A program made the position numbers and the translations under genes. Of a DNA stretch of 45,344 nt, positions 530 to 27,804 are shown one piece after another; position 1 is the stretch's first letter, and every line of letters starts with the position of its first letter. The stretch is from the IMG/VR virus record IMGVR_UViG_3300044712_001537, positions 1 through 45,344 of that record; one strand, 5' to 3'. A model generated the notes under the pieces. It was given only the letters and a program-made list of their open reading frames with translations, was not told where the DNA came from and ran no database searches. Source of the DNA: a virus.

Positions 530-981
530 CCTGCCGCTCCGCGCTTGAGCCATTGCTTGAGGCTCAGGATCACCAAGTCCTGCTGCGGCTTGTTGAGCCA
601 CTGGATCCGCTCCACGCCCGTCTGGCGGCAGGCGAAGGCCTCCAGCGACCGCATCGTGCGATCGCCCACCAGGCCGGCGTCGGCCAGGCGCATCCACAGC
701 GACCACATCAGCCGCTGCGGCGGCGTCAGCGAGCCCTTGACGTGCCGGCCCTGCCCGTGCCCCGGCTGCTGCCGCAGGCAGGCCTGCAGGTGGGCCAGGA
801 AGCGCCGGCGGCCGGTGAAGTCCAGCTCGGCCGCCGACCGCACGCCGGCGCAGACCGTGGCCATCAGGTCGCGGTACTCGTCGTCGCTGAGCTGCAGCTG
901 CGCCTTGGCCATGTGGATGGCCGCCAGGTCACCGTTGCGGGCGGGGTTGGCGGCCTGGGCGCGCGGGGCTGACCTGGTCAC
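526..981 (-). CDS. gemA: GemA-like regulatory protein (gp16 family, DUF1018)
   Basis: The 151-residue protein matches the Mu GemA/gp16 family. The typical N-terminal core (IHMAKAQLQLSDDEYRDLM followed by RSAAELD) lies at residues 22-55, and a helical C-terminal part contains MWSLWMRLADAGL. In Mu, GemA modulates host gene expression and DNA supercoiling during early growth; its exact activity is not settled. It sits directly before mor and overlaps it by four bases, the conserved Mu order. Its start overlaps the preceding small gene. Family assignment is firm; function in this host is inferred. Confidence 0.85.
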   Translation of the reverse strand: MTRSAPRAQAANPARNGDLAAIHMAKAQLQLSDDEYRDLMATVCAGVRSAAELDFTGRRRFLAHLQACLRQQPGHGQGRHVKGSLTPPQRLMWSLWMRLADAGLVGDRTMRSLEAFACRQTGVERIQWLNKPQQDLVILSLKQWLKRGAAG

Positions 982-14044: not shown

Positions 14045-14072
14045 TTGAGCCGAGGGGCCACCGGCATCTCCT

Positions 14073-14120
14073 GAAGTTCTTCAACTTCCGCGCCGCGCGC
14101 GCGCGGGCCAAAGTGCCCGC
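14073..14120 (+). promoter_or_regulatory. Predicted activator-dependent late promoter (Plys-like)
   Basis: GAAGTT (14073-14078) and AACTTC (14083-14088) form a perfect 6-base dyad around CTTC. A -10-like CAAAGT lies at 14109-14114, and the endolysin ATG is at 14121. The same arrangement, at identical internal spacing, occurs at 26672-26713 before the protease gene. No -35 box is present, as expected for promoters that need a Mor/C activator. I infer that Mor binds the dyad. The predicted start of transcription falls on or near the ATG. Confidence 0.68.
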
Positions 14121-14696
14121 ATGTCGCAAGCGCCTGCCACCGCTGCCAACGCCTTCCCCGCCCGCACGATCGACCTTATCGTGGTGCACTGCTCGGCCAC
14201 GCCGTCGGGCCAGGCGCTGGCCACCGGGCTGGGCAACCGGCGCCGCACCGCCGCGCAGATCATCGACCACTGGCACATGCAGCGCGGCTTCGCCCGCGCT
14301 GCGGCTGCCGTGGCCAGCTACAACCCCGGCCTGCCGCACATCGGCTACCACTACGTGATCGACCTCGACGGGTTGATCCAGGGCGGCCGCCGCCTGGCCG
14401 AGGTCGGCGCCCACGTGGCCGGCCACAACGCCCACAGTGTGGGCATCTGCCTGGTCGGCGGCGCCGAACTCAAGGCGCGCTACAGCCGCGCGCAGTGGGG
14501 CTCGCTCAAACAGCTGGTGGGCACGCTGAGCATCCAGCGCCCCGGCATCCGCGTGCTGGGCCATCGCGACCTGTCGCCCGACGCCAATGGCGACGGCACC
14601 GTGACGCCCGGCGAATGGCTCAAGACCTGCCCCGGCTTCGACGTGGGCCTGTGGTGGTCTCTGCACGGCGCGCCGCCGGCAGACCAGGTGCTGTGA
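14121..14696 (+). CDS. Endolysin: N-acetylmuramoyl-L-alanine amidase (Amidase_2/T7-lysozyme type)
   Basis: A 191-residue zinc amidase that cuts the bond between muramic acid and the stem peptide. It has the first zinc ligand in IVVHCSAT (H23), the GYHYVI strand (74-80), GHRDLSPDANGDG with H148, and TCPGF with C170 as third ligand, as in T7 lysozyme-like amidases. There is no signal peptide, so release needs the downstream holin. It heads the lysis cassette and directly follows the late promoter; there is no ribosome site before the ATG. Confidence 0.92.
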   Translation: MSQAPATAANAFPARTIDLIVVHCSATPSGQALATGLGNRRRTAAQIIDHWHMQRGFARAAAAVASYNPGLPHIGYHYVIDLDGLIQGGRRLAEVGAHVAGHNAHSVGICLVGGAELKARYSRAQWGSLKQLVGTLSIQRPGIRVLGHRDLSPDANGDGTVTPGEWLKTCPGFDVGLWWSLHGAPPADQVL

Positions 14697-15013
14697 TGCC
14701 CCACGCCACGCCCGTGCTGCCGCCGGTGCTGCAGGTGCAGCTGATGCCCAACGCCAAGCCCTGGTGGACCAGCCGCACGCTGATCGTCAACGCCATCGCC
14801 CTGGCGCTGGCCGCAGCCGAAAGCCAGTTGCACCTGCTGCAAGCGGTGCTGCCGGTCAACGTGTTCGCGCTGCTGGCCTTCGTGCTGCCGGTGCTCAACG
14901 CCGGGCTGCGTCTGGTCACCACCACGTCGGTGGCGATGGGCGTGCCGCGTTCGACCGCACCCGCCGTGCCGCCCGCCGAACCCCCCACCGTCAACGAGGA
15001 GAGTCGACCATGA
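14696..15013 (+). CDS. Holin-like membrane protein
   Basis: A 105-residue protein with two hydrophobic helices, about 26-44 (RTLIVNAIALALAAAESQL) and 52-76 (LPVNVFALLAFVLPVLNAGL), joined by a short loop, and a Pro-rich tail. Its ATG overlaps the endolysin stop (TGATG). Size, topology and position next to the amidase gene make it the likely holin that lets endolysin reach the cell wall. The sequence pattern with AKPWWTSRTL is common in Mu-like phages of this group. Confidence 0.75.
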   Translation: MPHATPVLPPVLQVQLMPNAKPWWTSRTLIVNAIALALAAAESQLHLLQAVLPVNVFALLAFVLPVLNAGLRLVTTTSVAMGVPRSTAPAVPPAEPPTVNEESRP

Positions 15014-15270
15014 CTCGACTGATCGCCGTGCTGCTGGCCCTGGTGCTGGGCCCCTCGCTGGCGGGCTGCTCGGCCAGCCTGCAGGGGTTGCTGACCAACC
15101 GCGTGGTGATCAACGTCGCCCAGGACGGCTGCGCCACCAACAGCCGCTGGTTCGGGCTGTCGATCGGCGCCGACGTGGATGAGCGCGACTGCCGGGTGAT
15201 CGTCGATGCGCTGCGGCTGCGAACGGCGATGGAAGCGCTGGCCGCCGCGCAGGCCGCCGGCGCAAGGTAG
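15010..15270 (+). CDS. Lysis-cassette lipoprotein
   Basis: An 86-residue protein with a lipoprotein signal (MTRLIAVLLALVLGPSLAGC; Cys20 lipidated). The mature part has two more Cys (DGCATNSRW, ERDCRVIV) and a helical Ala-rich end. It overlaps the holin-like gene by four bases. Position suggests a spanin-like outer-membrane component, but it lacks the Pro-rich body of typical Rz1 proteins and no inner-membrane Rz partner is plain; the next gene, with an N-terminal helix and coiled coil, could be one. Confidence 0.62.
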   Translation: MTRLIAVLLALVLGPSLAGCSASLQGLLTNRVVINVAQDGCATNSRWFGLSIGADVDERDCRVIVDALRLRTAMEALAAAQAAGAR

Positions 15271-15276
15271 GTGGTG

Positions 15277-15609
15277 ATGCCGGACATCAGAGACCTCGTG
15301 CTCTTCGCGCTCACCCTGGGCAACCTCGTGGCCAACATCGCGCTGTGGTTGAGGAAGCCCGGGGAGGACGCCGGCCAGGCCGTGCAGACGCTGCGCAGCG
15401 AGACGCGCGAGTCGATCTCCAGCCTGCGCGGGCGCGCCGACGTGATGGAAGAGCGTGTCAAGCACATGCCGACCACCGACGAGCTGACCGAGCTCGAGGG
15501 CCAGTTCAGCGCCATCCGCGAGCGGTTGGTGGGCCTGGACGACACCACCAAGAACACGCGCGCTGCGGTGCAGCGCATCGAGGACTACCTGCGCCGCAGC
15601 GGCAAATGA
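15277..15609 (+). CDS. DUF2730-type phage protein (Mu gp25-like)
   Basis: A 110-residue protein with an N-terminal membrane helix (RDLVLFALTLGNLVANIALW, about 4-23) followed by a long coiled coil (QAVQTLRSETRESISSLRGR and on). This matches the DUF2730/Mu gp25 family, found between the lysis genes and terminase in Mu-like phages. I place the start at the ATG at 15277, after AGGTAGGTGG; GTG codons six bases earlier are alternatives. Function unknown; its topology would also suit an inner-membrane spanin-like partner of the preceding lipoprotein. Confidence 0.72.
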   Translation: MPDIRDLVLFALTLGNLVANIALWLRKPGEDAGQAVQTLRSETRESISSLRGRADVMEERVKHMPTTDELTELEGQFSAIRERLVGLDDTTKNTRAAVQRIEDYLRRSGK

Positions 15610-15908
15610 CGAGCATGAACTTCGCCCAAGCCGAGACCGAAGACCGCCGCCTGGTGATGCTGCGCGGGCTGCAGGCTGCTGCGCACTACCGTGCCAACGC
15701 CTACCTGCTGCGCCGCTACTGCGAGAGCCTGGGCCACACCGTGAGCGCCGACCGCATTGAGCAGGACATCGCCTGGCTGGCCGAGCAGGGCCTGGTCGAC
15801 CGCAAGGCGCCCGAGGGCGTGACCGTAGCCACTCTGACGCAGCGCGGGCAGGACGTGGCCGACGGATCGGCGTGCGTGCCGGGCGTGGCGCGGCCGCGTC
15901 CCGAGTGA
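15606..15908 (+). CDS. Mu gp26-like small protein (VpaChn25_0724 family)
   Basis: A 100-residue protein with a winged-helix-like body: RRLVMLRGLQAAAHYRANAY, then VSADRIEQDIAWLAEQGLVD, then a wing (VTVATLTQRGQDVADG). This fits the VpaChn25_0724/Mu gp26 family, regularly found just before the small terminase gene. Its start overlaps the DUF2730 stop. Role unknown; a packaging or regulatory DNA-binding function is possible. Confidence 0.75.
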   Translation: MTSMNFAQAETEDRRLVMLRGLQAAAHYRANAYLLRRYCESLGHTVSADRIEQDIAWLAEQGLVDRKAPEGVTVATLTQRGQDVADGSACVPGVARPRPE

Positions 15909-15915
15909 GCGGCAG

Positions 15916-16512
15916 ATGCCCCCGGTTGCCAAGATCGCCAAGCTGCCGCCCGAGCTGCGCAAGTGGCTGCACGAGACTTTCGTGCAGCGCGCCTTCGGCG
16001 ACATCGAGGGCATCACCGCGGAGCTGAACGCGCTGATGAAAGAGGCCGGCGTGGCCATCACCATCGGCAAGAGCGCGGTGGGCGCCGAGAGCCTGAAGGT
16101 GCGCCGCGCGCAGGAGAGCATTGCCGCCACCACGCGCGCCATGCAGCTGATCGCCGACACCGCGCCCGACGAGGCCGACAAGCGCGGCGAGGCGCTGAAC
16201 GCGATGGTCAGCCAGGGCGTGTTCGAGGTGCTGCTGGACGTGCAGCAGGCCGGCGAGGAAGACGACCCCGCCGCGCGCATGCACCTGCTGAACAAGGCCG
16301 CGCTGGCGGCCGGGCGCCTCACCACCACCAGCGTGCGCCAGCGCCAATGGCGCGCCGAGGTCGAGACCAAGGCCAAGGCCGCCGCCGACGCCGTGACCAA
16401 GATCGCCCACGGCGGCGGCCTGACGCCGCAGCAGGTGCGTGAGATCCGCGACCAGATTCTGGGCATTGCGCGGCGCGATGGTGCGCCGGCAGTGCCCACC
16501 CCCGCAGCCTGA
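15916..16512 (+). CDS. Small terminase subunit (Mu gp27-like, DUF3486)
   Basis: A 198-residue helical protein matching DUF3486/Mu gp27: LPPELRKWLHETFVQRAFGD near the N-terminus (an HTH-like region), IGKSAVGAESLKVRRAQESI, and a long C-terminal helix. It recognises phage DNA for packaging and works with the large subunit. In Mu the large subunit gene follows directly; here five other genes (16575-20509) are inserted between them, the main oddity of this region. Confidence 0.85.
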   Translation: MPPVAKIAKLPPELRKWLHETFVQRAFGDIEGITAELNALMKEAGVAITIGKSAVGAESLKVRRAQESIAATTRAMQLIADTAPDEADKRGEALNAMVSQGVFEVLLDVQQAGEEDDPAARMHLLNKAALAAGRLTTTSVRQRQWRAEVETKAKAAADAVTKIAHGGGLTPQQVREIRDQILGIARRDGAPAVPTPAA

Positions 16513-16574
16513 TCGAGCGCGCCCAAGGGCCGCTCGATGGTGCGCACGACGCAACCGCAACCCTGGAGCCCAAC

Positions 16575-17114
16575 ATGCTCACTCTGACCAACATCCTCAC
16601 CCGTGTGCGCAGCCTGGTGCTGGGCGAGAGCCGCGCGGACGGCGCATTCAGCGCCTCGCGGCGTCTGCTGCTCGGCGCCACGGCGGCGCTGGCACTGGCA
16701 TCGCTCGGGCTGCCGACCCCGGCCGATGCGACGCTGACCATCAGCACGGCGTCGCGTCAGAACATGGCGACGGCGCTCCTGGCCGACATTTCCGGCGGCA
16801 CGATCAAGCTCTACAACGGATCGAAGCCGGCCGCGCTGGGCACGCCTGCGGGCACGCTGCTGGCCACGCTGAACCTTGGGGCGCCGGCAGGCACCGCAAC
16901 CAACGGCGTCATCACCATCGGCTCCGTGACGCAGACCAACACCAGCCACGTGAACGGCACGCCGACCTTCATCCGCTTCAGCGACAGTGGCGGCACTGCG
17001 GTGGCTGACATCGACATCGGTGCGGGCGCAGGCAACGTGCAGTTTTCGGGCACGGTGGTCAACGGCCAGAACGTGACCGTGACCGGACTGACGCTGACCA
17101 TGCCCAACGCCTGA
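16575..17114 (+). CDS. Phage structural-like beta protein with signal-like N-terminus
   Basis: A 179-residue protein. Residues about 54-179 follow a pattern widespread in phage structural regions: 'RQNMATALLADISGGTIKLY', then TLLATLNLGAPAG, TPTFIRFSDSGGTAVADID and a beta-rich end. The first 53 residues are unusual: a basic stretch, then LLLGATAALALASLGL and PADA, which looks like an export signal or membrane segment. GGAG before the ATG supports this start. It is the first gene of the block inserted between the terminase genes. Function unknown; virion decoration or fibre attachment is likely. Confidence 0.65.
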   Translation: MLTLTNILTRVRSLVLGESRADGAFSASRRLLLGATAALALASLGLPTPADATLTISTASRQNMATALLADISGGTIKLYNGSKPAALGTPAGTLLATLNLGAPAGTATNGVITIGSVTQTNTSHVNGTPTFIRFSDSGGTAVADIDIGAGAGNVQFSGTVVNGQNVTVTGLTLTMPNA

Positions 17115-17144
17115 CGGCAGCCTGCGGCAACCCCAGGCATTGCC

Positions 17145-18551
17145 GTGGCAATCCCCGCGCTCACCGTCTATAGCGTCGCGGCCGGTCAGCCAATCCACGC
17201 CGGGCGCTGGCCTGGCGGGCGGCTGACGGGCGATGCTGCGCTGTCTGCTGTCGAGGCGGCGGGGGCGATGCTGTCACAGCCCTCAGACGTGACGGGTGAC
17301 ATAGTTCTGTCGCCCGTGCTGCCGGTTGGGTCGCTGCGTGGAGCCGATCCTGCCCCATACCAGATTGCGTCAGATGGCATGTGGACGTGGTTCACATCGC
17401 CGGTCGCCGTGTTCCACAACGGAGCGACGTACTGCGGTTATGTCAAGGCAAATGGTAGGCAGGGGATTGCCAAGTGGGTGCATGAGACAGATAGTGGGTC
17501 CGTCTTCGAGTTGTCGACCTCGTTTCAGGTTGACGATCACAACAACGCGGCCGTGCTCGTCAGAGAGGACGGCAAGATCGTCGCTGTGTACTCGGACCAC
17601 ACAGAAAACACGTTTCGCTATCGCGTGTCGTCTAACGCTGAGGACATATCGGCGTGGGGCGCAGAGCAGTCGCACTACCCATCTGACCCAGACCCACACA
17701 GCTACCAAAACCTGTTGTACCTGTCGACGCCGGGGCGCTATTACGTCTGGTATCGAGAAGGCCAGTCGAAGCGTCGTGCGGTTTCGACCACCGATTGGTC
17801 GACCTGGGATGCTGAGCGCACGTGGGTGCAGAGCGGTGCAACAGGAAATCTGAACGCTTATACCAAGACCATCCACAACGGCATCAATCGAGTCGATTTC
17901 GTCTTCACGGACCAGGCGCCAAATTCGGACGGCACGACTTCGTTGCCGTCGTCGGTGTTTCACGGGTACATGACGGTGGATAGCGCCGGCAATGAGAGCT
18001 TCTTCAACAGTAGTGGGGCATCGCTCGGTGGGAACGGTTCGCTGACAAACACGACCGGCACGAAGATTCTCGATTACGCCGAAGCACGTGGGAATTTCTG
18101 GATCTGGGACATCACCTACGGCGCAGGCGGCGAGCCGCAGGTGCTGATGGTTGGATTCGCGGACCACAACGATCACATCTACGTCCACGGTCGGTGGAAC
18201 GGCTCCGCGTGGGTCTGCACAACGATTACGACAGCCGGCCCAGGGCTGTACACCGGCAACGACTTCTACAGCGGAGGCATGTGTTTCGACAGCCAGGACG
18301 CGACGAAGGTCTACCTGTCGAAGCAAGTCGGGAGTGCCTGGGAGCTGCAGGAGTGGCGGACACCGGACAACGGTGCAACGTGGTCGAAGTACCGCGACAT
18401 CACAAGCGGGTCGGCGGCTGGAGTCAAGAATTGCCGCCCAATGAGTCCGCGCAATCACGACGGCCGCGCCGCGGTCGTGTGGTGGTCGGGGACGTACACC
18501 AACTTCAACTCGTGGAGCACCTCCGTTAAGGCGGTAGCCGGGATGGCGTGA
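17145..18551 (+). CDS. BNR_4-type beta-propeller protein, possible polysaccharide-acting fibre
   Basis: A 468-residue protein from a GTG start. Residues 27-66 hold two copies of a repeat (LTGDAALSAVEAAGAM, VTGDIVLSPVLPVGSL) shared with the next two proteins. From about 75 on it looks like a BNR_4 propeller, the fold of some sialidases and polysaccharide lyases: VDDHNNAAVLVREDGKIVAV at 129-148, SYQNLLYL...RYYVWYREG, then further blades. The fold suggests binding or cutting of a host surface glycan. Codon use is less GC-extreme than in the head genes, suggesting separate acquisition. No catalytic residues can be assigned safely. Confidence 0.68.
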   Translation: MAIPALTVYSVAAGQPIHAGRWPGGRLTGDAALSAVEAAGAMLSQPSDVTGDIVLSPVLPVGSLRGADPAPYQIASDGMWTWFTSPVAVFHNGATYCGYVKANGRQGIAKWVHETDSGSVFELSTSFQVDDHNNAAVLVREDGKIVAVYSDHTENTFRYRVSSNAEDISAWGAEQSHYPSDPDPHSYQNLLYLSTPGRYYVWYREGQSKRRAVSTTDWSTWDAERTWVQSGATGNLNAYTKTIHNGINRVDFVFTDQAPNSDGTTSLPSSVFHGYMTVDSAGNESFFNSSGASLGGNGSLTNTTGTKILDYAEARGNFWIWDITYGAGGEPQVLMVGFADHNDHIYVHGRWNGSAWVCTTITTAGPGLYTGNDFYSGGMCFDSQDATKVYLSKQVGSAWELQEWRTPDNGATWSKYRDITSGSAAGVKNCRPMSPRNHDGRAAVVWWSGTYTNFNSWSTSVKAVAGMA

Positions 18552-18559
18552 GGTACTAA

Positions 18560-19546
18560 ATGAGCTTCGCATCAGACACCTTCAGCGGCAGCGCGGGCAC
18601 AGAGCTGAGCGCGTACAGCGCCTCCTGGGCAAAGCAATCCGGGTACACGCAGAACGGGCTGATCGGAAACGACGGACAGTACGCCTACCACGCTGGGACG
18701 GGCGGGTACGCCGTATACCAGCACTCTGGTGCGCCCGCGAGCGCGGACTATTCCGTATTCGCAAGCCTATTCAGGAAGGCTGGAACACCAGCGGCCACTG
18801 GGCCGCAGATGGGGGTGTGCGGGCGGATGCAGGCGGGGGCTGGCACGTTCTACGCCGTCCTCTACGAGCACGGCAATACGCGATTCAGTCTGTACCGATT
18901 CAACGCGACGACGCCGACGCTGCTGGGGACGCGCTGGACACATACGCTCACGACGACGCCAGAGACTGTCGAGCTTCGGATGTCCAGCAGCGACATCAGC
19001 GTCTACGTGGATGGCGTCTTGCGAATCGGCCCGGTCACCGACAGCTCGCCGATCTCAACGGCTGGCAAGGCCGGGATCATCCTGTTCGACATGAGGCAGA
19101 CCGGCGTCAACGACACCGGGGGCCTGGACAACTTCGATGCCGTCGATGCCGCGATACTGAGCGACCTCAGTGGCAACGTCACCCTCGATGCTGTTGCGCC
19201 CGCCGGCACCCTGGCCGACGCCGGCCCCACTGCGCTGACTGGCAACGTCACCCTTGACGTGGTGGCGCCGGCAGGATCACTCGGCCTGCAGCCCGGTGTC
19301 GTCACCGTGCCTGCGCTGCGCAACTGGTCTGGCAGCCTGCAGACCAGCGTGACGATCCCGGTTGTCACCGTTCTCTCGATGACCACAGGCGCTCAGGTGC
19401 TGGCGTTGACCGACCAGGTGACTGACGGCACCACTGCCGATCTGACCATCACCGATGTCGCGCTGGTCCCGGGCACGGCCTACATGGTGGCCGGCTGGTC
19501 CGCTGATGGGTCGCAGCGCTTCGCGGTGCCGATCACTGCCGCCTGA
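18560..19546 (+). CDS. Lectin-like (LamG-type) protein with shared repeat
   Basis: A 328-residue protein. Residues 1-195 resemble a concanavalin/LamG-type beta-sandwich (FSGSAGTELSAYSASWAK, DISVYVDGVLRIGPV, AGIILFDMRQTG). At 203-241 it carries two repeats, LSGNVTLDAVAPAGTL and LTGNVTLDVVAPAGSL, of the kind found in both neighbours. A beta-rich end follows (NWSGSLQTSVTIPVVTVLSM). It probably binds carbohydrate or decorates the virion. It lies nine bases after the propeller gene; codon use is again less GC-extreme. Confidence 0.65.
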   Translation: MSFASDTFSGSAGTELSAYSASWAKQSGYTQNGLIGNDGQYAYHAGTGGYAVYQHSGAPASADYSVFASLFRKAGTPAATGPQMGVCGRMQAGAGTFYAVLYEHGNTRFSLYRFNATTPTLLGTRWTHTLTTTPETVELRMSSSDISVYVDGVLRIGPVTDSSPISTAGKAGIILFDMRQTGVNDTGGLDNFDAVDAAILSDLSGNVTLDAVAPAGTLADAGPTALTGNVTLDVVAPAGSLGLQPGVVTVPALRNWSGSLQTSVTIPVVTVLSMTTGAQVLALTDQVTDGTTADLTITDVALVPGTAYMVAGWSADGSQRFAVPITAA

Positions 19547-19548
19547 CT

Positions 19549-20175
19549 ATGAGCACCAGCTACGGCGCCACGCCGCCCGGCATCACCGGCACCCACTACG
19601 GTGGTCCGGGCCTGGGCGTGCTCGGGTCCCAGGTGCCGTCTGGGGGCCTGGATGGCACCGGCTACTTGTACGCTGGTCTGAACCTGCCGGCTGATGCCAA
19701 CAAAGAGGTCCGGGGTCCGATCACGCGCTGGCCGAGCGGCGCGCTGACTGTTTACGAGGACAGCAGCTTCAGCTACACCGGTTCGAGCGACTACGCGCTC
19801 TATGCGCTGTACGTCGATGGCGTTGCGAGCACCGATGACATCGGCTACGGGGCGGGTATCGGGAGGATCGAACTCGCTGTGGGCGGCGGGCTTTCCGGCA
19901 ACGTCGACCTCGATGCCGTCGCCCCTTCGGGCGCCCTGGCCACATCCGGCGCCAGCGCGCTGTCAGGCGACGCCGCGCTCGAGCCTGTCATGCCAGCCGG
20001 CACGCTGGCCGACGCTGGGCCCAGCGGGCTGTCGGGCGGCATCACGCTGGGCAACGTCGCACCCGGCGGCAGCCTCACCGGTGACGTGTCCGCGGCGCCG
20101 ACCCTCATCCCCAGCCTCAGCCGCGGCGTCGACTACGTCATCCGCCTGCACGGCGTCGACTGCTTCCCCATGTGA
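19549..20175 (+). CDS. Repeat-containing small structural-like protein
   Basis: A 208-residue protein. The N-terminal half is a compact beta domain (residues 1-110, Gly/Tyr rich). At 115-177 there are three copies of the shared repeat: LSGNVDLDAVAPSGAL, LSGDAALEPVMPAGTL and LSGGITLGNVAPGGSL. The C-terminus (SRGVDYVIRLHGVDCFPM) is short. It starts two bases after the preceding stop. The common repeat suggests these three proteins assemble together or arose by exchange of modules. Confidence 0.62.
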   Translation: MSTSYGATPPGITGTHYGGPGLGVLGSQVPSGGLDGTGYLYAGLNLPADANKEVRGPITRWPSGALTVYEDSSFSYTGSSDYALYALYVDGVASTDDIGYGAGIGRIELAVGGGLSGNVDLDAVAPSGALATSGASALSGDAALEPVMPAGTLADAGPSGLSGGITLGNVAPGGSLTGDVSAAPTLIPSLSRGVDYVIRLHGVDCFPM

Positions 20176-20182
20176 GGGCCCC

Positions 20183-20509
20183 ATGCGCCGCCTGCCCCCC
20201 ACCCCCCAGACCCCGTTCGTGATTGGCGAGGTGCACGACATACCGTTCCGCTTCGGCCGCGAGATGACCGCCGACGAAACCGTGGCCAGCGTCACCGTCG
20301 ACTGCGCGTCGGTCGGCGCCGTGGTCGATCCCGACCCGGATGCATCGGTGGCCACGCCTTACGCCTTGTCCGGCACAACGGTGCTGCAGCGCTTTGCGGC
20401 GCTGGTGGAGCAGACGCGCTACGTCGTGTCCGTCACGGCCACCATGTCCAGCGGCCGCGTCTTCATCGGCCAGGCGCTGGTGATGGTGCTGCCCAAGATC
20501 CGGTCATGA
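20183..20509 (+). CDS. Small beta-sandwich phage protein
   Basis: A 108-residue protein of alternating strands (FVIGEVHDIPFRFGREM, ASVTVDCASVGAVVD, TRYVVSVTATMSSGRVFIGQ). It resembles small phage proteins thought to adapt fibres to the virion, a weak identification. Its stop overlaps the large terminase start (ATGA), so it is translationally coupled to packaging genes although its likely role is structural. Confidence 0.6.
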   Translation: MRRLPPTPQTPFVIGEVHDIPFRFGREMTADETVASVTVDCASVGAVVDPDPDASVATPYALSGTTVLQRFAALVEQTRYVVSVTATMSSGRVFIGQALVMVLPKIRS

Positions 20510-22128
20510 CCGACCCCACCCTCGCGCTGCGCACCGACGCCGCCGACCCCGACGCGCCGCCGCCGGTGCTGCTGGCCTACCAGGCCGACTGGGTGGCCGA
20601 CGAGGCGCAGCTGAAGGTGGGCGAGAAGGGCCGCCGCATCGGCCTGACCTGGGCCGAGGCGTCAGACGACGTGCTGATCGCCAGCGCCGCCGGCGGCTCC
20701 AAGGTGTTCTACATCTCGGCGACCCAGGACATGGCGCGCGAGTACATCGAGGCCTGCGCGCTGTGGACGCGCGCCTACCACGTGGCCGCCAGCGCGATGG
20801 GCGAAGGCCTGTACGACGACGGCGACGACGGCGACGGCAAGAAGCGCGTGATCAAGACCTACGAGATCGCTTTCCCGCACTCGGGCCACCGCATCGTCGC
20901 GCTCAGCAGCAGGCCCACCAACCTGCGCGGCAAGCAGGGCGTGATCGTGATCGACGAAGCGGCGTTCCACGGCGACCTGCAGGCGCTGCTGAAGGCCGCG
21001 ATGGCCATGCTGCTGTGGGGCGACAAGGTGCGCATCATCAGCACCCACGACGGCGTGGAGAACCCGTTCAATGCGCTCGTGATGGAGGTGCGCGCCGGCA
21101 AGCGCGGCGGGCCGGCCAAGGCCAGCGTGCACCGCATCCCCTTCCAGCGCGCGGTGGCCGACGGCCTGTACAAGCGGGTGTGCCTGCGCAAGGGCAAGAC
21201 CTGGACGCAGGCGGCCGAGGACGAGTGGGTGCGCGACGCCTACGCCTTCTACGGCGACAACGCGGCCGAGGAGCTGGACGCAGTGCCGTCGGCCAGCGCC
21301 GGCGCCTACCTCAGCCTGGCGCTGATCGAGCAGCGCATGGTGCAGGCCTGGCCGGACAACCCCGCGGGCCCGGTGATCGTGCGCGGCAAGTGGGACGACG
21401 GCTTCGCCTACCTGCCCGAGGAGGTGCGCCGCCACGCCGTCAAGGGCTGGATCGCCGAGGCGCTGCAGCCGCACCTGGACCGGCTGAACAAGGCCCTGCG
21501 CCACGCCTTCGGCGAAGACTTCGCGCGCAATCGCGACCAGGCCGTGACGGTCTTGGGCGAGGAAGACACCGACCTGACGCACCGCCCGCGCATCGTGATC
21601 GAGCTGAGCAACTGCCCGTTCAGCAGCCAGCAGCAGATCCACGAGCACGTGGTCGACAGCCTGCCGCGCTTTCGCGGCGGGGCGATGGACGCCACCGGCA
21701 ACGGCGCGGCGCTGGCCGAGGCGATGGCGCAGCGCTACGGCGTGGAGATGGTCGAGCAGGTCAAGCTCAACGATTCGTTCTACCTGGCGCACATGCCCAA
21801 GCTCAAGGCCGGGCTGCAGGACGGCACGCTGCGTGACCTGCCGCGCGACGAGCAGCACCGCGACGACCTGCGCGCCATCAAGCTGGTGCAGGGCGTGCCC
21901 AAGGTGCCGCGCCAGGCCACTCAGACCGCCGGCCAGAAGGCCGCCGCGGCCGAGGGCGGGGAGCGGCTGCAGCGCCACGGCGACTACGCCATCGCTCTCT
22001 TCCTGATGGAGTACGCGTTCCACCGCGAGGCCGGCGAGATCGCCTGGACGCCGGCGCCGGGACGGCACTCCAGCTTCGACGAGGCCACCGGCGGCGGCGC
22101 CGACTGGGCCAGAAAGGCGGGCTGGTGA
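20506..22128 (+). CDS. Large terminase subunit (Mu gp28-like)
   Basis: The 540-residue packaging motor and headful nuclease. The N-terminal ATPase has a Walker A variant GRRIGLTW (42-49), as in Mu-type terminases, and Walker B GVIVIDEAAF (D150, E151), then a coupling-like IISTHDG. The C-terminal nuclease region contains RIVIELSNCPFSS and GAMDATGNGAALAEA with a conserved acidic residue. Length fits the family. The gene starts in overlap with the previous small gene and is separated from the small terminase gene by the inserted block. Confidence 0.9.
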   Translation: MTDPTLALRTDAADPDAPPPVLLAYQADWVADEAQLKVGEKGRRIGLTWAEASDDVLIASAAGGSKVFYISATQDMAREYIEACALWTRAYHVAASAMGEGLYDDGDDGDGKKRVIKTYEIAFPHSGHRIVALSSRPTNLRGKQGVIVIDEAAFHGDLQALLKAAMAMLLWGDKVRIISTHDGVENPFNALVMEVRAGKRGGPAKASVHRIPFQRAVADGLYKRVCLRKGKTWTQAAEDEWVRDAYAFYGDNAAEELDAVPSASAGAYLSLALIEQRMVQAWPDNPAGPVIVRGKWDDGFAYLPEEVRRHAVKGWIAEALQPHLDRLNKALRHAFGEDFARNRDQAVTVLGEEDTDLTHRPRIVIELSNCPFSSQQQIHEHVVDSLPRFRGGAMDATGNGAALAEAMAQRYGVEMVEQVKLNDSFYLAHMPKLKAGLQDGTLRDLPRDEQHRDDLRAIKLVQGVPKVPRQATQTAGQKAAAAEGGERLQRHGDYAIALFLMEYAFHREAGEIAWTPAPGRHSSFDEATGGGADWARKAGW

Positions 22129-22265
22129 TGCGCCGCAATCGGGCTGCCAGCCCAGGAACACCGTTTAAAAACGTTTTAAACGGTCGCACCCATACCCACG
22201 CCGCGGCGGCGGGCCTTCAGGGCCGCCACGGGGCGATTTTCCAATCCGATCCGGAGCAGGCATGA
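22128..22265 (+). CDS. 45-codon linker ORF between terminase and portal genes
   Basis: The reading frame starts with an ATG overlapping the terminase stop (TGATG) and stops with a TGA overlapping the portal ATG (ATGA). It encodes 45 residues (MRRNRAASPGTPFKNVLNGR, then THTHAAAAGLQGRHGAIFQS, DPEQA). No ORF-like conservation can be judged from one sequence. The precise overlap at both ends suggests it is translated and passes ribosomes to the portal gene. An AT-rich perfect inverted repeat lies inside it. Confidence 0.42.
   Translation: MRRNRAASPGTPFKNVLNGRTHTHAAAAGLQGRHGAIFQSDPEQA
22160..22184. repeat. Perfect 11-base inverted repeat
   Basis: ACCGTTTAAAA (22160-22170) and TTTTAAACGGT (22174-22184) are perfectly complementary around ACG. 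It is strikingly AT-rich for this genome and sits in the only sizeable gap between terminase and portal genes. It could be a hairpin in the late mRNA, a protein-binding site or the trace of a small mobile repeat. There is no T-run for a terminator on either strand beyond the arms themselves. Confidence 0.6.
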
Positions 22266-23977
22266 ACACCCTCGTCGACGCCAGCGGCCGACCGATCGAC
22301 ATGGCCGCCATCCGCGAGCCGCAGACCGCGCGCGTGGCCCATCTGCAGCGCGAGTTCGACGCGCACCCGAGCCGCGGGCTGACGCCGGACCGGCTCAACC
22401 GCATCATGCAGTCGGCCGAGCAGGGAGACCTGGTCGGACAGATCGAGCTGGCCGACGACATGGAGGAGCGCGACGCGCACCTGTACGCCGAGCTGGGCAA
22501 GCGGCGCGGCTTCGTCACCGCGCTGGACTGGTCGGTGGAGCCGCCCGAGGGCGCCACGCCGGCCGAGGAGAAGCTGGCCAAGCAGGTGCACGAGTGGCTG
22601 GAGATGATCCAGGCCGAGGCCAACGGCGTGACCGGCGGCATGGCCGTGCTGCTGGCCACCATGACCGACGCCATCCTCAAGGGCTTTGCGCCGCAGGAGC
22701 TGGTGTGGGACTACGTCGGCGACGGCTCGGGCCGCAAGGTGATGCTGCCGCGCGCCACCTGGCAGCCGCAGCGCTGGTTCACCACCAGCGCCGACCGCCG
22801 CCGCTTCCTGCTGCGCAGCCGCAGCATGACCGAGGCCACCGCCGAGCTGCCCGCGGTGATGGGCGAGGAGCTGCTGCCGTACGCCTGGCTGATGCACGTG
22901 CACCCGGCGCGCAACGGCTATCTGGCGCGCGGCAGCCTGGCGCGGGTGCTGTTCTGGCCCTACCTGTTCAAGAACTACTCGGTGCGCGACCTGGCCGAGT
23001 TCCTGGAGATCTACGGCCTGCCGCTGCGCCTGGGCAAGTACCCGGCCGGCGCCGGCGACAAGGAAAAGCTCGCGCTGCTGCAGGCCGTGACGCAGATCGG
23101 CCACAACGCCGCGGGCATCATCCCGCAGAGCATGCAGCTCGAGTTCCAGGCCGCAGCGGCCGGCACCGAGGTGCCTTTCGCGGCCATGTGGGACCGCATG
23201 GACGCGGCCGAGAGCAAGGCGATCCTCGGCCAGACGCTCACCGCCAGCGAGGGGCAGCATGGCACCCAGGCGCTGGGCAACGTGCACAACGAGGTGCGGC
23301 ACGACATCGGCGAGGACGACGCGCGCCGCATTGCCGAGACCATCACGAGCCAGCTCATCCGGCCGCTGGTCACGCTCAACGTGGCCGGCGCCGACCTGCG
23401 CCGGCTGCCGCGCTTCGTGTTCGACACCGGCGAGGCCGAAGACCTGGCGCTGTTTGCCGATGCGCTGCCCAAGCTGGCCAAGAGCGGCATGAAGATCGGC
23501 CGCAAGTGGGCGCAGGAGAAGCTGCGCATCCCCGAGCCCGAGGACGGCGAGGACGTGCTGCAGGGCCCGCCGGACCCCCAGCCCGCGCCGCCCCCGGGCG
23601 CGCCGGGACGGCCCGGGCAGATCCCCAAAGACTCTCCAGTTCCGCCACCGCCGGCCGACGCGAAGGTGGCGCTGGCCGCGCTGGCTGCCGCGCTGAATGC
23701 GCAGGTGGCGGCGCCGGCACCGCCGCGCGACCTGATCGACGAGCTGGTGGCCGAGCAGGCCGCGCAGTGGCAGCCGCTGCTGGGCCCGCTGGTGCAGCCG
23801 CTGCTGGCCGAAATGCAAAAGGCGCTTGCTGCCGGCGAAAGCCTGGAAGCCTTCGCGGCGCGGCTGCCCGAGCTGATCCCCCGACTCGATGCGCAGCCGG
23901 TCACGGCCGCCATCGCCCAAGCTGCGTTCGCCGCCCGCCTGGCGGGCGAGGCGGGCGTGGACCTCAACCAGGAGTGA
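22262..23977 (+). CDS. Portal protein (Mu gp29-like, DUF935)
   Basis: The 571-residue portal forms the dodecameric DNA channel at the capsid vertex. It carries the DUF935 features: RLNRIMQSAEQGDLVGQIEL, DMEERDAHLYAELGKRRGFV, ALDWSVEPPEG near the start, FAPQELVWDY, and the PVGAGDKEKL-like 'KYPAGAGDKEKLALLQAV'. A Pro-rich linker (about 430-465) separates a C-terminal helical domain. The ATG at 22262 has CGGAGCAGGC just upstream. No sign of truncation. Confidence 0.9.
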   Translation: MNTLVDASGRPIDMAAIREPQTARVAHLQREFDAHPSRGLTPDRLNRIMQSAEQGDLVGQIELADDMEERDAHLYAELGKRRGFVTALDWSVEPPEGATPAEEKLAKQVHEWLEMIQAEANGVTGGMAVLLATMTDAILKGFAPQELVWDYVGDGSGRKVMLPRATWQPQRWFTTSADRRRFLLRSRSMTEATAELPAVMGEELLPYAWLMHVHPARNGYLARGSLARVLFWPYLFKNYSVRDLAEFLEIYGLPLRLGKYPAGAGDKEKLALLQAVTQIGHNAAGIIPQSMQLEFQAAAAGTEVPFAAMWDRMDAAESKAILGQTLTASEGQHGTQALGNVHNEVRHDIGEDDARRIAETITSQLIRPLVTLNVAGADLRRLPRFVFDTGEAEDLALFADALPKLAKSGMKIGRKWAQEKLRIPEPEDGEDVLQGPPDPQPAPPPGAPGRPGQIPKDSPVPPPPADAKVALAALAAALNAQVAAPAPPRDLIDELVAEQAAQWQPLLGPLVQPLLAEMQKALAAGESLEAFAARLPELIPRLDAQPVTAAIAQAAFAARLAGEAGVDLNQE

Positions 23978-23981
23978 CGAC

Positions 23982-24209
23982 ATGAAAGTGCGAGCCAAGT
24001 TCCTGTGCAACAGCAAGATGGACCTGCCGGACGGCGGTGTCACCGTGTGGATGTCGCCGGTGTACAGCAGCGACCCAGCGAGCGAGAACAAGGCGTTCTG
24101 CGACGCCACGCCGGCCGGCGTGCTGCAGATGCAGATCAGCAAGGGCAAGCCGGCGGCGGATGTCTTCGTGCAGGGCAAGCAGTACTACGTGGACATCCTG
24201 CCCGTCTGA
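23982..24209 (+). CDS. Small head-region protein of unknown function
   Basis: A 75-residue, beta-rich protein (MKVRAKFLCNSKMDLPDGGV, then TVWMSPVYSSDP and KQYYVDILPV). CAGGAG before the ATG supports translation. It lies between the portal and F genes, a place where Mu has none. Possibly a small virion component; no family recognised. Confidence 0.62.
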   Translation: MKVRAKFLCNSKMDLPDGGVTVWMSPVYSSDPASENKAFCDATPAGVLQMQISKGKPAADVFVQGKQYYVDILPV

Positions 24210-24225
24210 CGCCGCCTGACGCCCC

Positions 24226-25482
24226 ATGCCCGCCACCATCACCCTGGGCGCGCTCGCGCCCGAAGACAGCTTCGCCGCCTTTGCGGCGCGCGGGCTGCTG
24301 CGGCCGAGCTTCCGCTGGCAGGAGGTGTGGCAGGCCGAGCATGCGCGCGCCTTCGCCGTGGCCGGGGTGATGCGGCTGGACGTGTTGCGCACCATCCGCG
24401 ACCAGGTCGACAGCGCCGTGGCCAACGGCACCGGCTTCGAGGAGTTCCATCAAGCCCTGAAGCGCCAGCTGGTGGCCAAGGGCTGGTGGGGCAACCTCGA
24501 GATCACCGACCCGAAGACCGGCGAGGTGCGCACCACCAAGTTCAACGACGCGCGGCTGCAGCTGATCTTCGACGTCAACATGCGGCAAAGCCACGCCGCC
24601 GGGCGCTGGGCGCGCATCATGCGCAGCCGCAGCCAGACCCACATCGTCTACCGCACCATGCGCGACGAGCGCGTGCGCGCCAGCCACAAGCCCTGGGACG
24701 ACGTGGTGCTGCCCCGGGACCACCCCTGGTGGGCCACGCACTACCCGCCCAACGGCTGGCGCTGCCGCTGCACCGCCTTCGGCATCGACGAGCGTGGCAT
24801 CGAGCGCATGCGTGCCGCCGGCGCCAGGATCAAGACCGAAGCGCCGGCCACGCAGTGGGTCGAGTTCGAGAACAAGTCCACCGGCCAGGTCGAGCGGGTG
24901 CCGCGCGGCATCGACCCCGGATTCGCCTACAACCCCGGCCAGGTGCACGTGGCGCAGGGCATCGAGCAGCTGGCGCGCAGCCTGGCCGCGGTGCGCGGCG
25001 CCAGCGTGCGCCCGGCCGGCGCCGCGGCCAACGATGCCGGCAGCGCCCTGCAGCTGCAGCGCGCGGCCATCGCGCGCGGCCGGCGCGAACAGGCCTTCCG
25101 CGACTTCCTGGCCGACCCGCCGCCCAAGGTCGACACCGGCCTGCCGGTGGCGGCCGTGCCCGCGCCACGCGGCGAGCCGGCGGTGGCCAGCGTGCGCGCC
25201 GCCGACCTGCTGCGCCAGGCGGGCGACCCGGCCTACCCGCGCGCGCTGCCCACCGTGGCAGCCGACTGGGCGATGGCGCAGGCCGTGATCGACCGCGGCC
25301 AGCGCCTGGACCTGGCCGGCGGCCGCGTGCTGTGGTGGTGGGCGCGCGGCACGGGCGATGCGCGGCGCGTGCACGTGCTCGAGCTCGAGCGCGGCGCGCT
25401 GGTGTGGTGGACGCGGCAACTGGCCGCATTGAGCGTCGACGAAGCGCGCACGCGCTACCCGGCGCTGGAAGGACTGCTGTGA
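24226..25482 (+). CDS. Minor head/morphogenesis protein F (Mu gp30-like)
   Basis: The 418-residue protein has the phage minor head domain of Mu F/SPP1 gp7 type: FEEFHQALKRQLVAKGWWG, RLQLIFDVNMRQSHAAGRWA, RDERVRASHKPWDDVVLP and the signature HYPPNGWRCRCTAFGID at about 168-184. It is needed for head assembly and DNA packaging or ejection. The C-terminal third is variable and Ala-rich. Its stop is overlapped by a GTG start of the next gene. Confidence 0.88.
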   Translation: MPATITLGALAPEDSFAAFAARGLLRPSFRWQEVWQAEHARAFAVAGVMRLDVLRTIRDQVDSAVANGTGFEEFHQALKRQLVAKGWWGNLEITDPKTGEVRTTKFNDARLQLIFDVNMRQSHAAGRWARIMRSRSQTHIVYRTMRDERVRASHKPWDDVVLPRDHPWWATHYPPNGWRCRCTAFGIDERGIERMRAAGARIKTEAPATQWVEFENKSTGQVERVPRGIDPGFAYNPGQVHVAQGIEQLARSLAAVRGASVRPAGAAANDAGSALQLQRAAIARGRREQAFRDFLADPPPKVDTGLPVAAVPAPRGEPAVASVRAADLLRQAGDPAYPRALPTVAADWAMAQAVIDRGQRLDLAGGRVLWWWARGTGDARRVHVLELERGALVWWTRQLAALSVDEARTRYPALEGLL

Positions 25483-25724
25483 ATCATCACGCCGACAAGC
25501 CGGCGCCCGCCGTCAATCCCTGGGGCCTGACCGAGGTGGAGGCGCGCACGATGGACGCGTTCATCGAGGCGGGCAGCCACAAAGGGGTGGCCCGCAAGAT
25601 CAACCGCTCGGTCAAGACGGTCGAAGCGCACTGCGCCCGGGTCAAGCGCAAGATGTCGTCGCGCAACAAGATCGACTTCCTGCTGCAGTGGGACCGCTGG
25701 CGCCGTGGCCAGGGTGCGGCGTGA
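25479..25724 (+). CDS. LuxR/GerE-type HTH protein inside the head operon
   Basis: An 81-residue protein from a GTG that overlaps the F stop (GTGA). Residues about 18-70 match the LuxR-family HTH: LTEVEARTMDAFIEAGSHKG, then VARKINRSVKTVEAHCARVK and KMSSRNKIDFLLQW. There is no receiver or ligand domain. Such a regulator within Mu-type head genes is unusual, since Mu has none here. It could fine-tune late transcription or act on host genes. Its stop overlaps the next start. Confidence 0.78.
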   Translation: MNHHADKPAPAVNPWGLTEVEARTMDAFIEAGSHKGVARKINRSVKTVEAHCARVKRKMSSRNKIDFLLQWDRWRRGQGAA

Positions 25725-26122
25725 GCAGCTTCACCGATCCGCTCGAGGTGGTGCAGCAGGGCGAGCGCTGGCGCACCCTGCGCGCCATGCACTACTGGAC
25801 CGGCTGCCGCGACGGTGGCGAGCCGCTGGCGCAGCGCTGCGTCATGCTGGTGGTGGTGCCGGCCGGCTTCGTGACCGACTTCGCCAGCATCCCGCGCCTT
25901 TTCTGGACGCTGGTGGGCCACCCCGCCGGCCGCTACGCGCAGGCCGCGGTGCTGCACGATTTCCTCTACAGCAGCCGCGCCGTGCCACGCGGCGAGGCCG
26001 ACCGCATCTTCCGCGAGGCGATGCAGGTGCTGGGTGTGCCGGCCTGGCAGCGCTGGGCGATCTGGGCCGGCGTGCGCCTGGGCGGGCGGCTGGCCTTTCA
26101 GCCGCAGACCGGAGGGGCCTGA
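25721..26122 (+). CDS. DUF1353 phage protein
   Basis: A 133-residue protein from the GTG at 25721, overlapping the HTH stop. It shows the DUF1353 pattern: VVVPAGFVTDFASIPRLFWT (about 46-65), RYAQAAVLHDFLYSSRAV (about 72-89), then ADRIFREAMQVLGV and IWAGVRLGGRLAF. The conserved Asp and His residues suggest a metal or peptidoglycan-related function, but the family is uncharacterised. Commonly found among phage structural and lysis genes. Confidence 0.85.
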   Translation: MSSFTDPLEVVQQGERWRTLRAMHYWTGCRDGGEPLAQRCVMLVVVPAGFVTDFASIPRLFWTLVGHPAGRYAQAAVLHDFLYSSRAVPRGEADRIFREAMQVLGVPAWQRWAIWAGVRLGGRLAFQPQTGGA

Positions 26123-26622
26123 TGGACGAGCTGCAGATCACGCTGGACAACGCCGCGCTGCTGCGCGCCATCGACGGCGCGATCGAGCTGCTGGCCAGCC
26201 CGCGCCAGCTGATGGAGGAGATCGGCGCCAAGCTGGAAAGCAACGCCAATCTGCGCTTCGACAGCAAGAAAGACCCGGCCGGCGTACCGTGGCCGCCGCT
26301 GTCGCAGGTGACCATCGACTACTGGTACGCCAAGAAGTACCCCAAGGGCATCCCCGGCACGCTGATGGAGCGCACGCGCCAGCTGCGCAACAGCCTGGGG
26401 TACAACGCGGCAGATGACTCGGTGGTGCTCGGCACCAGCCGCCGCGTGCCGGGCAAGAGCCAGCCCTACTGGGAGGTGGGCCAGCTGCACGAGTGGGGCA
26501 CTGTGATCATGCCGCGCCGCGGCATCTTCACGGCCGACCCGAAGACTGGCAAGCTGGGCGGCGACGACGAAGCCGACGTGCTGCAGATCGTCAACGACGC
26601 GGTGCTGGGCGCCTTCGGCTGA
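26122..26622 (+). CDS. Virion morphogenesis protein G (Mu gp31-like)
   Basis: A 166-residue protein of the phage virion morphogenesis family (Mu G): MEEIGAKLESNANLRFDSKK, PWPPLSQVTIDYW, LMERTRQLRNSLGYNA, QLHEWGTVIMPRRGIF. In Mu, G is needed for head-tail assembly. The ATG at 26122 overlaps the DUF1353 stop and has GGAGGGG upstream. It is the last gene before the second late promoter. Confidence 0.88.
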   Translation: MDELQITLDNAALLRAIDGAIELLASPRQLMEEIGAKLESNANLRFDSKKDPAGVPWPPLSQVTIDYWYAKKYPKGIPGTLMERTRQLRNSLGYNAADDSVVLGTSRRVPGKSQPYWEVGQLHEWGTVIMPRRGIFTADPKTGKLGGDDEADVLQIVNDAVLGAFG

Positions 26623-26671
26623 GTGCCGTGGCAGCTGCAAAGTAGCTGCAAGTTAGCGCCATCCATCTGCT

Positions 26672-26721
26672 GAAGTTCTTCAACTTCCGCGGCTCGCGCG
26701 AGGCGCCCACAGTGGCGGCTT
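26672..26721 (+). promoter_or_regulatory. Predicted activator-dependent late promoter (PI-like)
   Basis: GAAGTT (26672-26677) and AACTTC (26682-26687) flank CTTC, identical to the dyad at 14073. CACAGT at 26708-26713 is in the same place as CAAAGT in the first copy, and 20 bases around the dyad are identical in both. The protease ATG at 26722 follows with no ribosome site. An AGCTGCAAAGT/AGCTGCAAGTT tandem repeat (about 26632-26653) lies upstream. In Mu, promoter PI lies before gene I, the same position. Confidence 0.68.
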
Positions 26722-27804
26722 ATGCGCTTGCTCACCGCCTTGTTGTCTGCCTCGCTGCCGCTGCTGGCCAACGGCCAGGCGCAGCTGCTGCCGGCCGGTG
26801 AATTCAGCGCCCGCGACGGCCGGCCCGGACCCGGCAAGACCTGGAGGGTCAGCGATGCACAAGGCCTGAAGCTTGCCGCCGCAATGAACACGACGATCGC
26901 GGCCACGCCCATCGTCATCGACTACGAGCACCAGACGCTGCACAAGGAACGCAACGGCCAGCCCGCGCCCGCCGCCGGCTGGATCAGGAGCGTGACCTGG
27001 CTGACAGGCAAGGGCCTGCTCAGCGACGTGGAGTGGACCGACAAGGCCCGCGCCGCGATCAACGCCGGCGAGTACCGCTACATCAGCCCCGTGATCACGT
27101 GGGACCAGGACAGCGGCGCCGTCACCGGCGTGCACCTGGCCGCGCTGACCAACTTCCCCGCGCTGCTCGGCATGGACGCCGCCGTGGCCGCGCTTTCCAC
27201 CCTCAACGACCACGCCCCCCAGGAGACCCCCATGAAGCTGCTGCTTGCTGCCCTTGCCACCATGATGGGCCAGGCCTCCTTGGCCACGGCCGACGAAGCC
27301 ACTGCCGTGGCCGCCGTGCAGGCCTGGAAGCCCCCGCCGGCACCGCTGCCCGAGGCGCTGACCACCGCGCTCGGCCTGGCTGCCGGTGCGGACGCCACTG
27401 CCGCGCTGTCGGCCGTGGCGGCGCTGAAGGCGCCGAGCACCGCCACCGTGCAACTGGTCACCGACCTGCAGGGCCAGCTGGCCACGCTCACGGCGCAGAT
27501 CAACGGCGCCGCGGTTGACCGCGCGGTCGACGGCGCGATCGAGGCCGGCAAGCTGACGGCCGCGCAGCGCGAGCAGTACGTGGCGCTGGGCAAGAAAGAC
27601 CTGGCCATGCTGACGGCCATCCTGGCCGCCGCACCGGTGATCCCCGGCCTGGCGGGCCAGGGCGCTGCGGCCAAGGTCGCGGCGTCGGGTGCCGACACGC
27701 GCCAGGCCATCACTGCGCTGACGACCGACCAGCAGGCCATCGCCGCGCAGCTGGGCATCGCCCCGGCGGACTACCTGAAGTCGCTGCAGGCCGCCGCGGC
27801 CTGA
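26722..27804 (+). CDS. Head maturation protease/scaffold (Mu I-like, gp32)
   Basis: The 360-residue protein fits Mu gpI: an N-terminal protease with PIVIDYEHQTL (catalytic-type H70), AAGWIRSVTWL, LLSDVEWTDKARAAI and GEYRYISPVI (S122), and a C-terminal helical scaffold (about 171-360). The protease trims the scaffold after prohead assembly. It follows the second predicted late promoter immediately, and no Shine-Dalgarno lies before the ATG. The first 20 residues look signal-like (LLTALLSASLPLLANGQA), probably by chance of composition. Confidence 0.9.
   Translation: MRLLTALLSASLPLLANGQAQLLPAGEFSARDGRPGPGKTWRVSDAQGLKLAAAMNTTIAATPIVIDYEHQTLHKERNGQPAPAAGWIRSVTWLTGKGLLSDVEWTDKARAAINAGEYRYISPVITWDQDSGAVTGVHLAALTNFPALLGMDAAVAALSTLNDHAPQETPMKLLLAALATMMGQASLATADEATAVAAVQAWKPPPAPLPEALTTALGLAAGADATAALSAVAALKAPSTATVQLVTDLQGQLATLTAQINGAAVDRAVDGAIEAGKLTAAQREQYVALGKKDLAMLTAILAAAPVIPGLAGQGAAAKVAASGADTRQAITALTTDQQAIAAQLGIAPADYLKSLQAAAA
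27232..27804 (+). CDS. Internal in-frame scaffold protein (Mu Z-like)
   Basis: An ATG at codon 171 of the protease gene is preceded by AGGAGA (27221-27226) at ideal distance. Initiation here would give a 190-residue protein containing only the scaffold domain, as Mu gpZ is made from within gene I. The domain is Ala-rich and helical, ending PADYLKSLQAAAA. The start signal is clearly better than that of the full-length gene, so the free scaffold may be the major product. Confidence 0.7.
   Translation: MKLLLAALATMMGQASLATADEATAVAAVQAWKPPPAPLPEALTTALGLAAGADATAALSAVAALKAPSTATVQLVTDLQGQLATLTAQINGAAVDRAVDGAIEAGKLTAAQREQYVALGKKDLAMLTAILAAAPVIPGLAGQGAAAKVAASGADTRQAITALTTDQQAIAAQLGIAPADYLKSLQAAAA

Follow-up and report, generated by a model that had tools for sequence, protein, structure and literature searches.

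Twin dyads before the endolysin and protein I genes of a Mu-like phage as putative late promoters of a candidate Mor-family activator

In phage Mu, the Mor protein acts at the middle promoter Pm from a dyad whose centre has been reported at -43.5 (PMC4390567, PMC4287176), and it is C, not Mor, that acts at the lys and I genes (PMC4461284, PMC4287176). In phage T4, a hairpin on the longer transcripts of genes e (lysozyme), soc and 49 covers the start region; the late promoters of e begin inside this hairpin, and late RNA escapes it (PMC3014915). RNA-seq of phage Fc02 found three sequential forward-strand late clusters that come on after induction, the first beginning at the holin-endolysin genes (PMC9936078). 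Late control in Mu-like phages other than Mu has been little studied, and we found no paper on it for D3112 or DMS3. Here we describe two identical dyads, each followed by a -10-like box, that stand before the endolysin (lys) gene and the gene of protein I, a Mu-like protease/scaffold, in the viral record IMGVR_UViG_3300044712_001537. The entire IMG/VR record (45,344 bp) was analysed and is called the window below. We hold with high confidence that the two sites are a conserved pair of late promoters, new in their details and known in kind. Sequence comparison makes it likely that they are driven by the single Mor-family protein of the phage.

Paired dyads before lys and I

An earlier note on this DNA had placed the dyad GAAGTT-CTTC-AACTTC at 14073-14088 and 26672-26687, with the boxes CAAAGT (14109-14114) and CACAGT (26708-26713) each exactly 20 bases past the dyad end, directly before the genes of the endolysin (start codon 14121) and of protein I (start codon 26722), and had seen no further copy. 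The sequence bears this out, and a scan of both strands of the window with up to three mismatches returned these two copies only. The 16-bp dyad is expected by chance 0.05 times in the window and occurred twice in none of 100 shuffles; a looser scan for dyad, box and start codon gave two good sites and no others. The note's 20 identical surrounding bases could not be kept as counted, that is, as the dyad plus 20 more, but the identity itself is real and spans 22 bp in total (CTGAAGTTCTTCAACTTCCGCG; 14071-14092 and 26670-26691), a block absent elsewhere in the window. A longer comparison (CATCTxCTGAAG...CCGCG) shows 27 of 28 bp shared by the two sites. The dyad is present at both places as stated, although its frame was 3 bp off: the conserved, constant part is YTGAAG-TT-CTTCAA (14071-14084 and 26670-26683). 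The right-hand arm AACTTC is dispensable, as it is missing from two relatives (L071 and L162) that keep the core, and the 6-4-6 dyad was dropped for a 5-2-5 core. No -35 element was found at the lysis site, where TTCCGC occupies the -35 place and matches TTGACA at two of six positions. If transcription starts 7 bp after the end of the box, the dyad centre falls at -43.5 at both promoters. The features are as follows.

14071..14084, + strand: putative activator dyad of the lysis promoter, CTGAAG-TT-CTTCAA; centre 14077.5, or -43.5 from the predicted +1 (14121)
14085..14108, + strand: spacer of 24 bp, beginning CTTCC like many sites of the family and lacking a -35 match
14109..14114, + strand: -10-like box CAAAGT (xAxxxT), with A2 and T6 kept at homologous sites
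14121..14696, + strand: endolysin gene (Amidase_2), start codon at the predicted +1, no Shine-Dalgarno sequence
26670..26683, + strand: putative activator dyad of the I promoter, CTGAAG-TT-CTTCAA; centre 26676.5, or -43.5 from the predicted +1 (26720)
26708..26713, + strand: -10-like box CACAGT
26722..27804, + strand: gene of protein I (Mu-like protease/scaffold), start codon at the predicted +3, N-terminus kept in relatives, no Shine-Dalgarno sequence

Close relatives were sought by exact and degenerate dyad scans of viral contigs, which gave many chance matches and five real ones: L041, L043, L071/L157 and L162, before protein I, and L070, before an endolysin of another type. Absence of the dyad upstream of the same genes in close relatives had been named as evidence against the proposal; in fact the dyad precedes I in four of them and the lysis gene in two, with identical spacing. 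In these sites the dyad stands 24 bp before an xAxxxT box, with the start codon just behind, and 24 bp separate TGAAGTTCTTCA(A/C) from the box in eight of eight. The record behind L162 (G004, 46,778 bp) is for the most part collinear with the window, its proteins being about 32-76% identical, and has a site at each of the two places: TTGAAGTTCTTCAA upstream of I and TTGAAGTTCTTCAC upstream of the endolysin gene. An exact search of bacterial genomes with the 20-bp block gave only apparent coding-sequence matches and no comparable prophage site, and a DNA-level search of known phages gave only short matches, mostly to the endolysin. The endolysins at the lysis position of L070, L206 and L238, judged by eye from their sequences, are of differing types behind one promoter position; the lysis gene appears to have been swapped while the promoter stayed.

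Dyads that change together, and the Mor-family protein

Distant relatives were collected with the terminase as bait (80 further loci), and the region upstream of I was compared with the rest of each locus. Most of them lack the exact dyad, and the reason is that each phage has a matched pair of its own: the two places are occupied by dyads that agree within the phage and whose sequence differs from phage to phage. Thus L200 has TTGAAATTTTTCAC, L206 GTAAACCGTTTTAG, L207 GTAAACCGGTTTAG and L204/L205 GCAAACCGGTAGGC at both sites; L201 has CTAAAYCCGTTTAA, and L211, L238 and L241 have paired dyads with spacings of 23 or 25 bp. The dyads of D3112 (TTGAACCCCTTCCG/C) likewise match within the phage. 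When 128 loci were searched for paired dyads set at one distance from xAxxxT, with a start codon shortly after, 11 records turned up on the coding strand, the window included, versus one weak case on the reverse strand; B3 was missed because of the 6-bp dyad centre of that phage. The L200 pair, which involves a short open reading frame, was found separately from this search; its arms are changed symmetrically, from GAAG..CTTC to GAAA..TTTC (TGAAATTTTTCA), at both sites, 15.8 kb apart. Since the dyads change together within a phage while their positions and geometry are kept, we take them for binding sites of one phage-encoded, co-evolving activator, and the comparison points to one trans-acting factor that reads both. 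Among the 39 sites collected in all, the five bases 3' of the dyad (14085-14089 in the window) also tend towards CTWCC, an asymmetric additional conserved element.

The proposed activator and its neighbour lie at the left end of the window, on the minus strand, in the gene order of phage B3.

137..529, - strand: Mor-family protein and proposed activator; the recognition helix, which includes Arg98, begins at residue 97; the gene start overlaps the end of gemA
526..981, - strand: gemA homologue, directly upstream of mor, early operon

The assignment of 137-529 to the Mor family, made in the earlier note, is borne out by a PF08765 match of 38.8 bits against a cut-off of 24.9. A search at E up to 10 gave one PF08765 gene in the window, a record that may be incomplete, and no second one that could supply the C protein of a Mu-type Mor-then-C cascade. 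The proposed lack of a C protein also fits the dyad-assigned records, many of them fragments, which hold one PF08765 gene each wherever the family was found (the parts of split matches fall in one frame). A Mor profile search retrieved Mu C and Mor structures (9l0x, 9vw8 and 1rr7) at E of about 1e-20; a single-sequence search of the PDB with Mor gave nothing useful. The modelled protein has a C-terminal helix-turn-helix (helices 83-92 and 97-115), and the top three Foldseek matches to the model were C and Mor, albeit weak (E 0.06-0.17).

When the Mor proteins were aligned with the dyads of their own phages, Arg in the recognition helix went with G at base 2 of the half-site, and Val, Met or Gln with A. 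All alignment columns were scored over 24 phages, and the Arg column was the sole errorless predictor of this base (14 Arg-G, 10 other-A). Five of the 24 (D3112, L085, L090, L110 and L125) joined the test after the rule had been seen, and L123 and L089 (ambiguous dyads) and G003 (frameshifted mor) were left out. In the window protein the residue is Arg98, the second of the modelled recognition helix 97-115. As support for Mor the correlation is suggestive. Because the dyad centre would lie at -43.5, as for Mor at Pm, and the recognition-helix residue tracks half-site base 2, the Mor-family protein is the best candidate for the activator of both dyads, a choice that we hold with fair confidence. 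The earlier proposal of a two-promoter late switch that is run by this protein and needs no C is thus supported by the sole Mor gene and by the co-variation of helix and dyad, with binding, start sites and activation as its predictions.

Two further observations concern the mor region. The mor-side end of the phage carries GAGTGAGA / TCTCACTC repeats (1-130 in the window; at the right ends of G003 and G004, L192 15950-16089 and L191 16640-16720), which are probably transposase-binding end repeats. The mor gene of G003 (L192 15800-15860) is frameshifted by a short tandem repeat beside the recognition helix, either an assembly artefact or a broken copy.

Start codons and a second inverted repeat

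The gap between box and start codon is 6-10 nt over the 39 collected sites; the commonest value is 6 nt, found at 14 of the 21 lysis-side sites. A four-base Shine-Dalgarno match occurs at one of the 39, versus 10 of 16 other genes of the window, and protein I N-termini agree from the first residue among relatives. Because the start codon stands so close behind the box and almost never has a Shine-Dalgarno sequence, the late mRNAs of endolysin and protein I are likely to be leaderless, a start placement absent from the earlier note. By the same promoter rule, protein I of DMS3 (L318) would start at 19037, 126 bp upstream of the annotated 19163; the predicted start is in frame and gives an N-terminus of the expected type. 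The same ATG is present in D3112 (L308, 19793), where a frame error in the record seems to cut the predicted start off from the remainder of the gene. The annotated starts of protein I look wrong in DMS3 (19037; annotated too far downstream) and in B3 (L309, 19887; annotated too far upstream).

A second inverted repeat, also absent from the earlier note, surrounds the box.

14103..14120, + strand: inverted repeat GCGGGC-CAAAGT-GCCCGC, with the -10 box between its arms and the ATG immediately after; predicted to fold as an RNA hairpin when transcripts read through
26704..26717, + strand: short inverted repeat CGCC-CACAGT-GGCG, weak, and alone no better than shuffles

Summed over the 39 sites, the repeat score was 208, against a mean of 122 and a maximum of 144 in 200 shuffles, and scores of at least 6 were reached by 56% of the sites versus 7% of 198 control starts. 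The arms vary among phages (GCAGGC/GCCTGC, GCTGCCCA/TGGGCAGC, GCGCGGCAG/CTGCCGCGC), as do the centre of the repeat and the length of its loop (1-12 nt), while the right arm stays beside the start codon; this varying position of the centre fits an RNA hairpin better than a protein site. A predicted hairpin at the start region with its 5' arm upstream of the late start is present at lys in the window and at more than half of the 39 sites. Upstream of lys in the window, and on its strand, run a repressor-like gene and accessory genes, and the stretch 14044-14121 yielded no terminator-like site; this makes read-through plausible, and a block against it would be useful. A lock on lys translation in read-through RNA is conceivable on this analysis, though we rate it a little below an even chance.

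Proposed mechanism, alternatives and known systems

The two sites would be the late promoters Plys and PI. The single Mor-family protein, product of the last gene of the early operon, would bind YTGAAG-TT-CTTCAA at -43.5 as a dimer or higher form and replace the absent -35 contact, so that host sigma70 RNA polymerase could use the weak box CAAAGT or CACAGT. Transcription would begin at the start codon or no more than about 2 nt from it and yield leaderless endolysin and protein I mRNAs. RNA that reads into lys from the repressor-side genes before it would form a hairpin abutting the lys start, which has no Shine-Dalgarno sequence, and be translated poorly; RNA initiated at Plys would not carry the 5' arm and would leave the start open. 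Comparison among phages establishes the conservation and spacing of the sites, the matching of dyads within a phage, the position of the start codon, the excess of inverted repeats and the helix-base correlation; from these we infer Mor binding, the +1 positions, leaderless translation and, as the longest step, the read-through lock. More tentatively still than for the lock itself, Mu-like phages with Mor only may broadly use self-locking leaderless late promoters, in which a hairpin reaching to the start codon holds the -10 box in its loop and only RNA begun at the activated promoter would be translated, and may keep their late regulons private through one Arg/Val-type Mor contact that changes with both dyads. 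The model gives a large Mu-like group a sequence-level description of its late promoters, predicts where exactly transcription starts, amends gene starts (those of protein I in DMS3 and B3, and probably in D3112) and supplies naturally occurring Mor-dyad pairs from which the recognition rules of the Mor/C family could be worked out.

Several observations weigh against this reading. The labels of the helix test change only twice on the Mor tree, once on the branch to the window clade, which is nested among Val-A phages. The -10 boxes match TATAAT poorly and share no more than xAxxxT; distant sites were gathered with xAxxxT, a palindrome and a start codon close by as requirements, and these features, A2 and T6 among them, are partly built in there, the paired-dyad and inverted-repeat tests being less affected. 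Some sites, that of I in the window among them, have a weak inverted repeat or none. The lysis-side site of B3 has no ATG of a recognised gene at +1, the first gene behind that of L205 is not an endolysin, and the lysis-side ATG of L200 opens a mere 18-codon frame before a holin-like gene. This frame (1452-1508) ends 2 nt before the ATG of the holin-like gene; it is possibly a leaderless leader peptide with translational coupling.

Other explanations fit parts of these data. The dyads could be late-activator sites read by another phage protein or a host factor, as Mor binding is a prediction and the phage encodes other small DNA-binding proteins (for example at 9484-9810 and 10517-11041, minus strand). 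A conserved host factor is disfavoured by dyads that vary between phages and match within them; the site geometry equals that of Mor at Mu Pm, and, in a comparison that covered the columns of the Mor alignment, one column of the recognition helix alone tracks dyad base 2 without error, with two co-changes on the tree. We therefore regard a different activator as unlikely. It is less likely still that the element works in RNA, with dyad and second repeat as leader hairpins controlling translation from promoters elsewhere: both repeats do fold as RNA and the region beside the start codon is under constraint, but L071 and L162 have lost the outer arm of the first hairpin and kept the TGAAG-TT-CTTCA core, in which 2 nt at the centre leave no room for an RNA loop, the fixed spacing to the xAxxxT box and the lack of a Shine-Dalgarno sequence fit a promoter, and in distant phages a dyad has its match only inside its own phage. 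Recent duplication, or a chance coding motif of the kind that does occur inside unrelated host and phage coding sequences, is hardly credible, since the identity does not extend past 22 bp, both sites lie between genes, and other phages repeat the paired, spaced arrangement with dyads of different sequence, a within-phage co-variation that already contradicts it. The strongest competitor grants the promoters and disputes only the lock: the repeat around the -10 box, which it encloses at many sites, might act on DNA as a second protein site or a melting aid, which needs no read-through RNA. Against it stand a centre and loop length that vary, unlike a fixed dimer site, a right arm that keeps to the start codon, and the run of repressor-side genes into lys with no terminator-like site found at 14044-14121; we think such a DNA role possible, if somewhat doubtful.

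With Mu Pm and Mor, the late promoters proposed here would share a Mor-family activator, a -10-like box with no -35 match and the dyad centre at -43.5; in both phages mor directly follows gemA, with an overlapping start. They differ in that Mu Mor serves one middle promoter leading to C, whereas the window sites stand before lys and I, and in that Pm has 5-6-5 arms, whose 6-bp separation is not matched by the 5-2-5 core of the window. The C-activated late promoters of Mu (Plys, PI, PP and Pmom) resemble the window sites in two of their positions, in front of lys and I, and in the late role proposed for these (PMC4461284); the window, by contrast, has one Mor/C-family gene and two sites only, and its starts look leaderless, whereas Mu lys has a Shine-Dalgarno-like AGGGA before its start.

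Among other Mu-like phages, D3112 and DMS3 (Casadabanvirus) share TTGAACCCCTTCC-type dyads, the 24 bp, the box and an ATG 6-7 nt on, with sites just after mor and before protein I, and the Arg of their Mor helix goes with the half-site G; their dyad sequence is another one, and their early genes lie on the opposite strand. B3 and Fc02 (B3 type) share the gene order of the window. B3 has the dyad TTTTCG-N6-CGAAAA before the lysis genes and I and in a third copy (L309 11566, 19835 and 26818); it differs in its 6-bp dyad centre, as in Mu Pm, its three sites and a lysis-side start that is not leaderless by the promoter reading. The third dyad (26818) precedes the tape measure gene and could mark a further late promoter. 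The late clusters of Fc02, resolved as clusters and not as start sites, fit the late-promoter model. T4 gene e shares a start-region hairpin at a lysis gene on longer transcripts, the lock in the window being a prediction, and differs in using its own late sigma factor and a Shine-Dalgarno start, as against the predicted host sigma70 with Mor and leaderless mRNA. The model also suggests a possible second, independent safeguard against early lysis, similar to that of T4.

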